From NCBI GenBank assembly GCA_025057975.1, contig JANWUV010000020.1, positions 240 through 36,823 on the forward strand: 36,584 nucleotides of DNA. Reading direction: 5' to 3'. Below, one piece after another: positions 18,370 through 24,189 of the stretch. The position numbers and the translations under genes are program-made. This DNA is from Chloracidobacterium sp. Its GTDB lineage: Bacteria > Acidobacteriota > Blastocatellia > Chloracidobacteriales > Chloracidobacteriaceae. The notes below the pieces were generated by a model. It ran no database searches and had not been told where the DNA came from. It was given only the letters and a program-made list of their open reading frames with translations. Each line of letters opens with the position of its first letter. Position 1 is the stretch's first letter.

Positions 18370-18398
18370 CGGTAAAACCACTGGGAAGCGGTTGTCAA
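18370..18398 (-). promoter_or_regulatory. Possible tRNA-Ala promoter
   Basis: On the minus strand a perfect TTGACA (-35, 18393-18398) is separated by 17 bases from TTACCG (18370-18375), a weak -10. It lies 32 bases before the tRNA and overlaps the last codons of the RNase D gene. Confidence 0.4.
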
Positions 18399-19591
18399 GC
18401 CGTGCCCTCAGCTCCAGACGACTCCGGCCGGATAATCCGCAGGCCACCGGGGGCGGTCGGTGCAATCTGTAGCAGCGCCTTTCCCGCGACCAAGTCAAGC
18501 AGCAAATCGCCGACGGCTGCGCGCCGCCATCCGTGCAGTAGGGGAAAATCGCCCGCCTCAGCGGGAGAGCCGCCCTGCAGAATCCATCCGGCGAAGCGGA
18601 GCAGGTCGTCGCGCGTCGCCAGGAGGTTCGGCGCAATATCCAGCGCCCCCGCCCGTAGGCGAACAACGGCGCCAAGCAGGCTGGCCAAGCCGTCCAATGT
18701 CGGGTCATACTCACGAGTCGTCACCGCTTCCGGCCACTCGCTTTCCGGCAACGCCAACGCCTGCTGGATGGTCTCAAGAATCTCCGTCACCGCTTCGCGC
18801 GACAGGTTACCGGCGCCGCGCACCTGCCGGAGCGCCGCCTCCGTACGCGGCATCGTATAGGCAATCTGCCGCAGGGCGTCATCGTGCAAAATGCTCCCAA
18901 CCGGACGGTTCCGGCTGCGCGCCGCCGCTTCCCGCCACTGGCACAACTCGCGTAGGACGGCCAACTCGCGCCGACTCAATCCGCCCAGTTTCCCAATTTT
19001 GAGATACTCCTGCCCGGCTTCGCGCCCTTTGACGGCCTGTGCCACGGCGTCCGCGCAGGCGTCCAGCGCCCACGCTATCCGGCCCCGCCGCTCCAGTTCC
19101 TTCAGCAGCCCGTCGTAAACGGGGAACAGGTAGCGTACGTCATTGAGGGCATACTCCAGTTGCTCCGGCAGCAGTGGGCGGCGCGTCCAGTCCGTGAATT
19201 GCTGCTTTTTGCTTAGGGAAACCTTGGTAAATCGCTGAACCAGCGCGGCGTAGCCCGCGGCCTCGCCATAGCCTAGAAATGCGGCGGCGATTTGCGTGTC
19301 GAACACGTTGACCGGAATGGCGTTTGTCTCGCGCCGGAGCAAGGCGATGTCTTGCGCGCCGGCGTGAAAAATTTTCCGCACCCGCGAACTCGTCAAAACC
19401 TCAGCTAGCGGCGCAAGGTTGACGCGAAACGGGTCAACTGCGACACAAGCTTCACGCAGCCCAAGTTGCACAAGACACACCAGCGGCATGTAGCGCCCTT
19501 CACCCTGAAACTCCAAATCAATGGTGAGTTCGGTGTGCGTAAGCGCCCGGCGGCAAAAGTCCTGAAAGGCGCGGTCGGTGTCAATCCACAT
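18395..19591 (-). CDS. Ribonuclease D-like 3'-5' exoribonuclease with HRDC domain
   Basis: 398 residues from ATG 19591 (MWIDTDRAFQDF); the frame stays open upstream but that part is low-complexity. RNase D trims tRNA and other RNA 3' ends. The DEDD exonuclease has ELTIDLEFQGEGRYMPLVCL (Asp25, Glu27), then FDTQIAAAFLGYGEAAGYAA and LPEQLEYALNDVRYLFPVYD carrying the last acidic and Tyr residues. An HRDC-type domain follows (about 205-280). The last 100 residues (DPTLDGLASLLGAVVRLRAG onward) resemble the C-terminal RNase D region. It is the last protein gene of the minus-strand run and is followed by tRNA-Ala, a plausible substrate, though this pairing may be chance. Confidence 0.88.
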   Translation of the reverse strand: MWIDTDRAFQDFCRRALTHTELTIDLEFQGEGRYMPLVCLVQLGLREACVAVDPFRVNLAPLAEVLTSSRVRKIFHAGAQDIALLRRETNAIPVNVFDTQIAAAFLGYGEAAGYAALVQRFTKVSLSKKQQFTDWTRRPLLPEQLEYALNDVRYLFPVYDGLLKELERRGRIAWALDACADAVAQAVKGREAGQEYLKIGKLGGLSRRELAVLRELCQWREAAARSRNRPVGSILHDDALRQIAYTMPRTEAALRQVRGAGNLSREAVTEILETIQQALALPESEWPEAVTTREYDPTLDGLASLLGAVVRLRAGALDIAPNLLATRDDLLRFAGWILQGGSPAEAGDFPLLHGWRRAAVGDLLLDLVAGKALLQIAPTAPGGLRIIRPESSGAEGTA

Positions 19592-19694: not shown

Positions 19695-20465
19695 TTAGGA
19701 AATGTCTGCGTCGCGGTAGTGCGCAAGCGCAGCGCTAAGACCGTGCCGTACGGCGTCGAACTCCGCCATCAAACGGCGCCGCAACGAAACGTCGCCGCTT
19801 GGGCGCGGCTCGGTAGCGTTCGCCGGCGGCAACGGCGGCGGAAAACCCTCCGCTTGCGCGTCAAAAAGATACCAACCCGCAAGGTGCTTGGAGTCCCTGC
19901 CGTAGAAGACACCGTACTCACCGTTGAGCGGGTCATAGACGACCGCCACCTGCCACGGCATGCCGAAGACATCGCGCTGGGTGGCTTGGTCCGTACCGGA
20001 CATAAAAACGCCGAAGCCGGGGTGCGTATGATACCAGCCGACAATGCGCAAGTCCGCCTCGACTTGCCCCTGTCGCTGTTCACGTAAGCGTCGCAGGTGG
20101 TCGGCGACGGCCAACAGGTCGGCCACTCCCATCTCGACAAAGGTGGGACCAGCGGCGGCTTCCTGCGCCGGAACGGCGTCCACAATTGCGGTAAAGGTGA
20201 CGGTGCAGCCGCTGAGTTCGGCGACGTACACATTCCCGATCAGCAGCCCGCCGCACTCGTTTTCACCGAGAAACGCGCGCGCTAAATCAGGCATTGTCTC
20301 GGCCGGTTTCTCCGGCGGAGCGGCCAGCAGGATTTTTTCCTCCGCCTGCTTTGACAGGAAAACCTGCAGGCCGTCGGTGGGCGGTCGCCCAACGGTTTCG
20401 AGAACCTGCGGCAGCGGCCGCCGCATCGGTGTTACTTCACGGACGACTTTGATATGGAACGTCAT
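19695..20465 (-). CDS. JAMM/MPN (JAB1) domain metalloprotease
   Basis: 256 residues. The zinc motif is complete: Glu70 in GENECGGLLIG, then His146, His148 and Asp159 in GWYHTHPGFGVFMSGTDQAT (H-x-H-x10-D), with the conserved Ser just before it. JAMM enzymes remove ubiquitin or ubiquitin-like tails; bacterial relatives act in cofactor sulfur transfer, cysteine release or Ub-like pathways. The core is residues about 30-190; the last 60 residues are Pro- and Arg-rich and unlike the family. No E1, E2 or recognisable Ub-like gene is in the window. The start overlaps the stop of the 127-aa gene as ATGA, so the two are translationally coupled. Confidence 0.88.
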   Translation of the reverse strand: MTFHIKVVREVTPMRRPLPQVLETVGRPPTDGLQVFLSKQAEEKILLAAPPEKPAETMPDLARAFLGENECGGLLIGNVYVAELSGCTVTFTAIVDAVPAQEAAAGPTFVEMGVADLLAVADHLRRLREQRQGQVEADLRIVGWYHTHPGFGVFMSGTDQATQRDVFGMPWQVAVVYDPLNGEYGVFYGRDSKHLAGWYLFDAQAEGFPPPLPPANATEPRPSGDVSLRRRLMAEFDAVRHGLSAALAHYRDADIS

Positions 20466-20845
20466 GGCGTGAGCGGCCCTGGTTCAAAGGGGAAAACTTC
20501 ATTGTGTTTGACATCGAAGGCGAAGCTCTGCACGTCGTCCATACGAACGTAGAGTTTGCGGAAATGCGCCGTCGGCATGTGGTTTTGGAAGTGTTCGACC
20601 TCGCAGTCATCCAGCTCGAGCACATCGGTTTCGATGCGGACACGGCTGACGTTTTCCAGTCGCGCGTCGCGCGCCAACGAAAGCGTATCAGTAACGGTTC
20701 GGGAAATCCGCCCGCGCACGATGCCGTACGGCATGTAAAGCACCAGCAACGGACGCGCGCCGCCAGTGTCGAGCGCGGCGCGGATGGCCGTAAAGAGCGT
20801 GTCGCTCATGCGAAACTTCATCGTCGGCGCATCCAGTTGGCTCAT
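20462..20845 (-). CDS. Unknown 127-aa protein coupled to the JAMM protease
   Basis: No family recognised. The sequence alternates short beta-like stretches and acidic turns: ARPLLVLYMPYGIVRGRISR (30-49), DTLSLARDARLENVSRVRIE, DVLELDDCEVEHFQNHMP, then FRKLYVRMDDVQSFAFDV. The pattern of a GxVxGxI strand followed by a LxLxDxxV strand is reminiscent of Sm-like small beta barrels, but I cannot confirm that. A GGGAG lies 12 bases before ATG 20845. The stop overlaps the JAMM start (ATGA), which suggests the products are made together and may form a complex or a protease-substrate pair. Confidence 0.7.
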   Translation of the reverse strand: MSQLDAPTMKFRMSDTLFTAIRAALDTGGARPLLVLYMPYGIVRGRISRTVTDTLSLARDARLENVSRVRIETDVLELDDCEVEHFQNHMPTAHFRKLYVRMDDVQSFAFDVKHNEVFPFEPGPLTP

Positions 20846-22957: not shown

Positions 22958-24189
22958 CTGCCTTGTGTCTCCGCTCCAAGCAAGCCGGGTTTTGGTTGGT
23001 GACAGCGCTCTTAGCGCTCTGTCTGACCGGCTGCTCCCGCAAAAAGGAAACCGTTAGCGCCGCCGCACCCGACACGTCCGCCCCGCCGCCGGCGATCGAA
23101 GTCAAGACGACAACCGCCGTCGAACGCCTTATCCGCAAATCTATTGAAACCGTCGGGTCGCTTGTACCGGATGAGCAAGTCGTCGTCGCCGGACAGGTCG
23201 GCGGTGAAATCACCGAACTCACGGTGGATGTCGGCAGTCCAGTTAGAGCCGGTCAGGTCATCGCCCGCATCTCGCCCAAGGAATATGAACTTAAGCTCCA
23301 GCAGGCGGAGGCGGCGCTGGCGCAGGCGCGCGCCATGCTGGGCGAAGCCGGCCGGCGCGACCCTGTTGATATTGACGCCGTACCGGCTGTCCGGCAGGCC
23401 AAAGCCGCTCTTGACGACGCCCGCGCCCAGATGGAGCGCACCGAGCGCTTGGTAGCGTCCGGCGATCTGCCGCGCCAGCGGTGGGATACTGTGGAAGCCA
23501 ACTACCGCGCCGCCGAAGCCCGCTATCAGGCCGCCCGTGATGAAGCCGTCATGCGCCTTGGCGTCATCGAACAGCGCCAAGCCGAGGTGCGCTTTGCCCG
23601 GAAGAAACTCGAAGACTCCACCGTCCGTGCGCCCATCAGCGGCTTTGTCAGTGTTCGCCACAAGTCACGCGGCGACTTCATCAATGAGCAAGGCGGCAAC
23701 CGCGACATTGTCACCATTGTGCGGCTCGATCCGATTCGCGTTCAGGCGAATGTCGCCGAAGCTGGTGTTTCGTACGTCAAGGTGGGCATGGCGGCGCGCT
23801 TCACAACGGATGCCTACCCAGGCCGCGACTTTTCGGCGCGCGTGGCGCGCATCAGCCCTGTTCTTAATCAGCAGGCGCGGTTGCTGATGGTGGAGGCCGT
23901 CGCCCCAAATCCGCAGGGCCTGCTCAAGCCGGGCATGTTTGTGCGCGTTTATGTGGACATCGCCACCGACGTACCGGCGGTGTTCGTGCCGTCCAGTGCT
24001 GTCGTCAGCGCAGCCGGCGTGGACAAGGTGTTCGTCGTGGCGGACGGCAAAGCTGTGGCGCGGCGCGTTCGGCTGGGCAAGCGCGACGGCGAAGCGGTGG
24101 AAATCACCGAAGGTCTCAAACCCGGTGAAAAAGTCATCACCGACAACCTCGACCGTCTGACCGACGGAACGCCGGTCAAAACCTTCTAA
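22954..24189 (+). CDS. RND efflux periplasmic adaptor (HlyD/MFP family), lipoprotein
   Basis: 411 residues with a lipoprotein signal: LLALCLTGCSRKK, modified Cys27. The mature protein has the barrel-sandwich halves around a coiled-coil hairpin: VVVAGQVGGEITELTVDVGS, then QAEAALAQARAMLGEAG, and KKLEDSTVRAPISGFVSVRH, followed by the beta-barrel and the C-terminal VITDNLDRLTDGTPVKTF. It bridges the RND pump and an outer-membrane channel. It overlaps tetR by four bases and lies 21 bases before the dehydrogenase gene. Confidence 0.94.
   Translation: MTALCLRSKQAGFWLVTALLALCLTGCSRKKETVSAAAPDTSAPPPAIEVKTTTAVERLIRKSIETVGSLVPDEQVVVAGQVGGEITELTVDVGSPVRAGQVIARISPKEYELKLQQAEAALAQARAMLGEAGRRDPVDIDAVPAVRQAKAALDDARAQMERTERLVASGDLPRQRWDTVEANYRAAEARYQAARDEAVMRLGVIEQRQAEVRFARKKLEDSTVRAPISGFVSVRHKSRGDFINEQGGNRDIVTIVRLDPIRVQANVAEAGVSYVKVGMAARFTTDAYPGRDFSARVARISPVLNQQARLLMVEAVAPNPQGLLKPGMFVRVYVDIATDVPAVFVPSSAVVSAAGVDKVFVVADGKAVARRVRLGKRDGEAVEITEGLKPGEKVITDNLDRLTDGTPVKTF

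Follow-up and report, generated by a model that had tools for sequence, protein, structure and literature searches.

A JAMM metalloprotease gene that overlaps a predicted Sm-like gene in Chloracidobacterium, and its probable place in a dispersed ubiquitin-like conjugation system

In Chloracidobacterium sp., the gene of a JAMM metalloprotease overlaps that of a 127-aa protein, which raises the question of whether the two form a system of their own or whether the protease serves a pathway whose other genes lie elsewhere in the genome. An earlier note on the window (the whole stretch of DNA analysed here, 36,584 nucleotides), made from its letters, had proposed the pair as a self-contained, undescribed two-gene system. 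The features on which the discussion turns are listed below.

18395..19591, minus strand: RNase D (exonuclease and HRDC domains, by Pfam/NCBIfam), the next gene downstream of the JAMM gene
19695..20465, minus strand: JAMM/JAB metalloprotease of 256 aa, Rpn11-like (open reading frame with Pfam JAB and Prok-JAB), a predicted UbL-processing or deconjugating protease
19989..20030, minus strand: part of the JAMM zinc motif, H146-x-H148-x7-S156-x2-D159, whose columns are invariant in 16/16 JAMMs
20256..20258, minus strand: JAMM residue E70 within ExxGxLxG, the presumed catalytic glutamate, invariant in 16/16
20462..20465, minus strand: ATGA stop/start overlap of 4 bp between the 127-aa gene and the JAMM gene, in 7/7 Chloracidobacterium genomes
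20462..20845, minus strand: gene of the 127-aa protein, predicted Sm-like (LSm), a lineage-specific upstream partner of the JAMM gene (open reading frame, AlphaFold2, fold matches and a weak profile match to 5mki)
20507..20803, minus strand: predicted Sm-like domain of the 127-aa protein, residues 15-113 (aligned range of the best Sm match)

The genome to which the window belongs (G000) comprises 86 contigs, totals 3.52 Mb and is 99.9% complete. Chloracidobacterium and Blastocatellia MAGs are the nearest named relatives of the gene pair, and two of these MAGs count as congeners of G000. Its order is represented by 14 genomes, among which G297, G298 and G299 were taken as the same as G302, G300 and G301, with which they share their match places, and counted once. 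Genes were called with a simple codon-usage script, and some were found instead by profile search, tblastn or reading; those missed by the script include the TM/zinc-ribbon genes of G304 and G305, the 127-aa gene of G267, and the JAMM, E2 and UbL genes of G303.

The zinc motif of the JAMM protein is complete, as the earlier note had stated: E70, H146, H148, S156 and D159 are invariant in all 16 aligned JAMMs, and E70 is presumably the catalytic glutamate of the JAMM motif. Pfam JAB (3.5e-7) and Prok-JAB (1.4e-6) both match above cut-off and are the sole Pfam matches up to E = 1; a RadC domain is not among them, and a RadC identity was rejected. A sequence comparison with the PDB gave 48 matches at E <= 1, led by 6fjv, a regulatory subunit N11-like protein (1.2e-7) that we take to be the archaeal Caldiarchaeum Rpn11 (CsRpn11) of Fuchs et al., and followed by Rpn11, CSN5, AMSH and BRCC36 chains, with an unrelated lysozyme (0.86) as the last. 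The closest solved relatives by sequence are thus Rpn11-type proteins. An AlphaFold2 model of the JAMM protein reached a mean pLDDT of 32.9 and was left out of all comparisons. Matches at 1e-82 or better are present in 14/14 genomes of the order. When the window was compared with six congeners, dN/dS was 0.047-0.142 for the JAMM gene and 0.015-0.052 for the 127-aa gene (dS being partly near saturation); these values show purifying selection on the two genes, neither of which is therefore a chance open reading frame.

The ATGA overlap also proved genuine, since the stop codon of the 127-aa gene shares these letters with the JAMM start codon in every one of the seven Chloracidobacterium genomes. 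The earlier note had further placed the pair in one run with RNase D and a histidine phosphatase. The first half of this holds: RNase D (TIGR01388, 298.7 bits, just below the cut-off of 298.95) follows the JAMM gene in 7/7 Chloracidobacterium genomes. The histidine phosphatase, however, is found upstream in only 2/7 and therefore lies outside the unit. The block of 127-aa gene, JAMM and RNase D is kept in all seven genomes with four different upstream contexts, and this constancy suggests that the link between the 127-aa gene and JAMM may be useful. RNase D also follows JAMM in G303, a genome of the same family outside the genus, so that this adjacency is older than that of the 127-aa gene and JAMM; it is absent in G051 and G063.

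The shared overlap and the block that persists through four upstream contexts would both suit a dedicated two-protein module of JAMM and 127-aa protein, independent of any ubiquitin-like protein. However, the two genes are unlinked in all seven other genomes of the order, where the 127-aa gene adjoins JAMM in 0/7, and G304 and G305 have JAMM without any 127-aa gene, the protease gene lying there beside E2 and UbL. The gene-neighbour survey that the earlier note had suggested thus speaks against a self-contained two-gene system, and such a module appears very improbable. A physical or regulatory link between the two proteins is possible, and the narrower idea that they physically work together we regard as somewhat doubtful.

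The 127-aa protein itself was examined by structure prediction and family searches. As the earlier note had recognized, it does not resemble a ubiquitin-like substrate, as it ends in GPLTP and has no terminal di-Gly, and its AlphaFold2 model has an Sm-like fold. No Pfam or NCBIfam family matched it up to E = 1 and no PADLOC model up to 0.01; a Pfam search up to E = 10 over 15 members of its family returned seven chance-level families, the best at 0.046. With four close sequences as input, the AlphaFold2 model has medium confidence (mean pLDDT 64.6, core blocks 79-86). Three of the five models score 63-65 and two are poor (44 and 38), and the Sm fold therefore rests on a medium model. This model consists of a helix (15-26) and five strands (33-37, 41-47, 75-85, 93-101 and 107-111); strands 2 and 3 are joined by a less certain segment that contains two helices (49-57 and 61-70).

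Two structural searches with the model gave the same kind of result. The best Foldseek match had E 3.4e-3 and probability 1.00, with 0/822 matches at E <= 0.001, and the best 50 of the 822 belong either to Sm/LSm proteins or to small chains in snRNP/spliceosome entries, the latter taken as Sm/LSm subunits. VIA gave a best Z of 9.3 (rmsd 2.3, 76 aligned residues) and 20/957 chains at Z >= 8, on a scale on which a best Z of 7-8 is unremarkable; the best 50 of the 957 are again of these two kinds. In an independent sequence profile search of the PDB, the sole match up to E = 10 was the Like-Sm protein 5mki, a weak one at E 1.1-1.2. Taken together, the model-based comparisons make an Sm fold likely.

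Sm proteins carry an Sm1-type motif G-x3-G and an Sm2-type motif R-G. The residues L17, Y37, G41, V43, G45 and E77 and an E84-H85-x3-H89 motif are invariant in 15/15 members of the 127-aa family, in which the two glycines of the first motif (G41 and G45) are thus always present, while the Arg at the Sm2 position is found in 13/15 and the Gly after it in 0/15. Compared with the Sm/LSm/Hfq superfamily, the model shares the N-terminal helix and five strands of a bent sheet, but the protein matches no Pfam family, lacks the Sm2-type Gly in all 15 members and has the invariant E84-H85-x3-H89; its model also has two additional helices of low confidence inserted after strand 2 and before strand 3. 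An Hfq identity was rejected, there being no Pfam match up to E = 1 and a separate Hfq in the genome; Hfq (PF17209) is found above cut-off in 14/14 genomes of the order.

The 127-aa family occurs in 19 of the 162 genomes of the class, namely 12/14 of the order (it is absent from G304 and G305) and seven outside it, including a fragment at a contig end in G428, and is therefore an older, independent family. None of the seven carriers outside the order matches the order's UbL profile, and at least two of them (G219 and G259) have their own, more distant E1/E2/JAMM set. Adjacency to JAMM is specific to Chloracidobacterium; elsewhere in the class, the neighbours of the gene include no partner common to families. 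These neighbours, named by sequence reading without a family search, are a carboxylase-like run in G267 and G306, an amidase in G219, and subtilisin-like and other protease genes in a further family (f3). Hence the 127-aa gene, which probably encodes a ring-type (Sm-like) protein, has probably joined JAMM recently.

The earlier note had also stated that the locus fits no ubiquitin-like operon known to its author. The statement is correct for the window alone. At the genome level it fails, as the window's own genome encodes, besides the JAB protein of the window, E1, UbL and E2 at the following places on contig C5.

G000:C5:36967-37212: UbL of 81 aa (profile search)
G000:C5:37760-38920: E1 match
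G000:C5:213352-213897: E2 match

UbL, E2 and JAMM are each present in 14/14 genomes of the order. The UbL of the window's genome is a one-domain protein of 81 aa that ends in ...IFLNTRGG. It matches Pfam Rad60-SLD (SUMO-like) above cut-off at 2.5e-6, and YukD and ubiquitin below cut-off. When compared with the PDB, its profile found ubiquitin chains; single ubiquitins scored about 0.01-0.1, and the very low E-values come from tandem or fused ubiquitin chains with their repeats. NTRGG is present in all 14 UbLs, at the very end in three and before a tail in 11, which makes a C-terminal Gly available for activation. The tail after NTRGG has no residues in G000, G165 and G302, one residue in G304-G306 and 7-21 residues in the other eight; no common sequence was seen by eye among the tails. 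Over the 162 class genomes, the UbL profile at E <= 0.01 found the 14 genomes of the order and, besides them, G316 (6.5e-7) and G149 (0.005) only. Among 396 sampled genomes of the phylum, eight of them from the order, it found these eight and G257 (6.2e-4). More distant UbL/E1/JAB/E2 operons of their own exist in G316 and several other acidobacteria.

In 14/14 genomes of the order, the active site of the E2 reads HPH...C (e.g., L089:7341-7901), the catalytic Cys being preceded by HPH and not by HPN. Its match to Pfam UQ_con (5.6e-5) is below the curated cut-off, and a profile built from seven E2 sequences, of which two come from the order, leads to Rad6/UBE2A-B, with Rad6/UBE2B as the best match (5.9e-14). 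In the passages considered of PMC4630614, the Ube2w family is described as the only one to have HPH where other E2s have HPN, and a member of this family is reported to take ubiquitin on its N-terminal amino group. The E1 is ThiF/MoeB-like (Pfam ThiF, 4.3e-46); each genome has 2-4 E1-like matches, mostly of the ordinary ThiF/MoeB type, of which the best one was used.

Between E1 and UbL lies the gene of a short protein whose N-terminal part holds a hydrophobic segment and whose C-terminal part holds a CxxC...CxxC ribbon (L088:7250-7573, with equivalents in 14/14 genomes). This TM/zinc-ribbon gene adjoins UbL in all 14 genomes of the order, and 13 of them have E1 directly beside it; the G303 contig breaks off within the TM/zinc-ribbon gene, which places E1 beyond view. 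No Pfam match was found for the two copies scanned. The protein is a candidate anchor or E3-like helper, and no E3 family was recognized in the system. The proteasome family PF00227 is found in 13/14 genomes of the order, a match that does not separate HslV from other types.

Comparison of the 14 genomes provides a view of how the genes of the system came apart. Within the sister family (f2), a single run in G304 and in G305 comprises the E1, TM/zinc-ribbon, UbL, E2 and JAMM genes, and G306 has the same cluster with a 634-aa open reading frame inserted between E2 and JAMM (L172:2087-3991). The JAMM thus does sit within a contiguous ubiquitin-like run in relatives of the window's genus. In G267 of the same family, the genes from E1 to E2 are together and JAMM is on another contig. 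In the window's own family (f1), G051, G063 and G303 have E2 and JAMM together beside a divergent UbiE gene, with the TM/zinc-ribbon and UbL genes elsewhere (next to E1 in G051 and G063). In Chloracidobacterium, the E1, TM/zinc-ribbon and UbL genes are at a first place, E2 at a second and JAMM at a third with the 127-aa gene upstream; E2 is still divergent from UbiE, without JAMM, in 7/7 genomes. The order UbiE/E2-JAMM-RNaseD in G303, compared with 127aa-JAMM-RNaseD in all seven Chloracidobacterium genomes, implies a break between E2 and JAMM, with the 127-aa gene in the place of E2. The cluster was therefore broken up stepwise in the window's family, and the genes of the system are now kept at three separate places in the window's genome.

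Trees were built for JAMM (14/14 genomes of the order) and E2 (12/14). Both recover G304 with G305, the group of the window's family, and G303 next to Chloracidobacterium; the JAMM tree pairs G051 with G063, which the E2 tree leaves unresolved, and neither tree resolves the sister family as a single group. The two trees are near-congruent with each other and broadly follow the split between the families. In each of them the order stands on one side, with support that is modest (68/96 for JAMM and 66/62 for E2), and the outgroup branches are long. The system was thus apparently inherited vertically, which the trees fit without proving it. By tblastn between the window's genome and the four genomes of the sister family, UbL is 77-81%, E2 62-68%, E1 48-53% and JAMM 47-50% identical.

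Considering the presence of these genes, their active-site residues, the RGG end and tails of UbL, the gene order with its stepwise dispersal and the near-congruent JAMM and E2 trees, it is quite likely (probability about 0.85) that the JAMM protease matures and removes the UbL of a bacterial ubiquitin-like conjugation system. From these observations we infer every biochemical step of the system as well as its targets. A one-domain UbL would be produced, which in most relatives bears a variable tail behind Gly-Gly, and JAMM would cut off this tail where it is present. The ThiF/MoeB-type E1 would activate the C-terminal Gly of UbL, and the E2, by its HPH...C active site, would take UbL over and pass it to proteins, a transfer in which the small membrane-anchored zinc-ribbon protein perhaps helps. 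JAMM would also remove UbL from conjugates. As the UbL of the window's genome already ends at GG, trimming would not be needed there, and deconjugation would be the main remaining role of JAMM. In Chloracidobacterium, the 127-aa Sm-fold protein would have replaced E2 upstream of JAMM, and translational coupling would make both proteins together.

Some bacterial JAMMs trim sulfur-carrier proteins, and the ThiF/MoeB-like character of the E1 would also fit a role of this kind, in which JAMM trims a carrier of the CysO/Mec or MoaD type and not a protein tag. However, the orthologues of the window's JAMM adjoin E2 in G051, G063, G303, G304 and G305, and an E2 is not needed for sulfur transfer. Moreover, the same genome has a second small JAMM (open frame of 160 aa) near a ThiF-type gene, which would fit the role better. 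On these grounds a CysO/MoaD-type identity was rejected, and this explanation appears very improbable. The second JAMM and the ThiF-type gene, likely of the sulfur-carrier type, lie outside the window at G000:C7:22682-22975 and 23428-23940, and second, weaker JAMM matches of the small sulfur-carrier kind were seen in 9/14 genomes of the order.

Phage defence would be another explanation, in which the dispersed UbL system would have Bil, 6A-MBL or CBASS ancillary genes as its relatives. JAMM weakly matches the 6A-MBL model cap2_3 (6.3e-4, 18.4 bits against a cut-off of 320), and E1 and E2 weakly match PADLOC E1-E2 models. Presence in all 14 genomes of the order, dispersal and apparently vertical inheritance argue against it, and so, though not decisively, do the 10 neighbours of E1, E2 and JAMM searched with PADLOC in the window's own genome, nine of which had no match and one of which matched an amino-acid-transporter model (5.2e-11). 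A defence role therefore seems unlikely. A further, rather improbable reading is that the order runs a housekeeping, eukaryote-like ubiquitylation (with a highly conserved one-domain tailed UbL, a Ube2w-type HPH E2 and an Rpn11-like protease) in which, in Chloracidobacterium, JAMM is translationally coupled to an Sm-like protein beside RNase D. Tag removal would then be tied to RNA metabolism, and the protease would have the Sm-like ring as its adaptor, its inhibitor or its target.

Order-wide fixation, apparently vertical inheritance and the higher conservation of UbL (77-81%) compared with E1 and JAMM (about 50%) give the UbL conjugation system more the look of a core function of the cell than that of a mobile unit of defence. 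To our knowledge, bacterial ubiquitin-like systems are compact operons, several of which are linked to phage defence.

The conjugation system is of the same kind as the UbL/E1/E2/JAB, Bil and Bub systems described in bacteria. Bacterial UbL/E1/E2/JAB operons were predicted in 2006 (Iyer et al., PMC1779556), and the rows considered of that survey place them in proteobacteria, low-GC Gram positives, cyanobacteria, Bacteroides and actinobacteria; in these operons E2-E1-JAB are fused, the UbL is a poly-UbL or the E2 is without the classical His. The present system has the same four kinds of components, whose genes adjoin one another in G304 and G305 and, but for one insert, in G306, but here they are separate proteins, the UbL has a single domain with RGG, and the genes are dispersed in the window's genus and fixed in the order. 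The bacterial ISG15-like BilABCD also comprises UbL, E1, E2 and a JAMM protease, and processing exposes a C-terminal Gly, whereas BilA, as described in the part considered of PMC11354881, has two Ub-like domains and the genes of the window's genome are not one operon, nor was evidence of a defence role found for them; membership in Bil was rejected, since the 81-aa UbL has one Ub-like domain. Bub, a bacterial ubiquitination-like pathway (Ye et al. 2026; Gong et al. 2025), is compared here via its description in the passages considered of PMC13373217 only, in which it is presented as putative immune operons with phage protection not yet reported, 219/544 lying beside CapW or CapH+CapP and 59/544 beside CapK+CapS.

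Outside bacteria, Caldiarchaeum subterraneum has a system of CsUb, E1, E2, E3 and CsRpn11 (Fuchs et al. 2018, PMC6043591), whose Rpn11, in the passages considered, cuts the ubiquitin precursor exactly after Gly-Gly with removal of nine residues and also acts on conjugates. Both systems have a one-domain UbL with Gly-Gly and a short tail, an Rpn11-like JAMM, E1 and E2. In contrast, the present one is bacterial, is scattered in Chloracidobacterium and has a TM/zinc-ribbon protein instead of a recognized RING-type E3; its E2 has HPH, and its tail is not conserved in sequence and is absent in three species. What is distinct about the predicted system is thus its fixation in the order, dispersal in the window's genus, variable precursor tails, HPH E2 and lineage-specific Sm-like neighbour.

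Among the open-access papers listed by the searches, a scope that gives no proof of absence, none was found to deal with a ubiquitin-like system of Chloracidobacterium or of the order to which it belongs: PMC12816986 does not mention 'ubiquitin', and the Chloracidobacterium passages considered of PMC7203096 concern taxonomy and photosynthesis. Chloracidobacterium has cultured members, as noted in part of PMC12816986, and therefore UbL conjugates could be sought directly. Our results indicate that neighbourhood surveys can miss UbL systems once their genes scatter. The Sm-like gene that overlaps JAMM also offers a concrete case for asking whether a newly gained operon partner becomes functional. 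Elsewhere in the window's family, the 127-aa gene is present as tandem duplicates in the two large genomes G051 and G063 (L037:7590-8845 and L038:7693-8962), beside an EutN/CcmL-like gene and a kinase-GGDEF-TPR giant.
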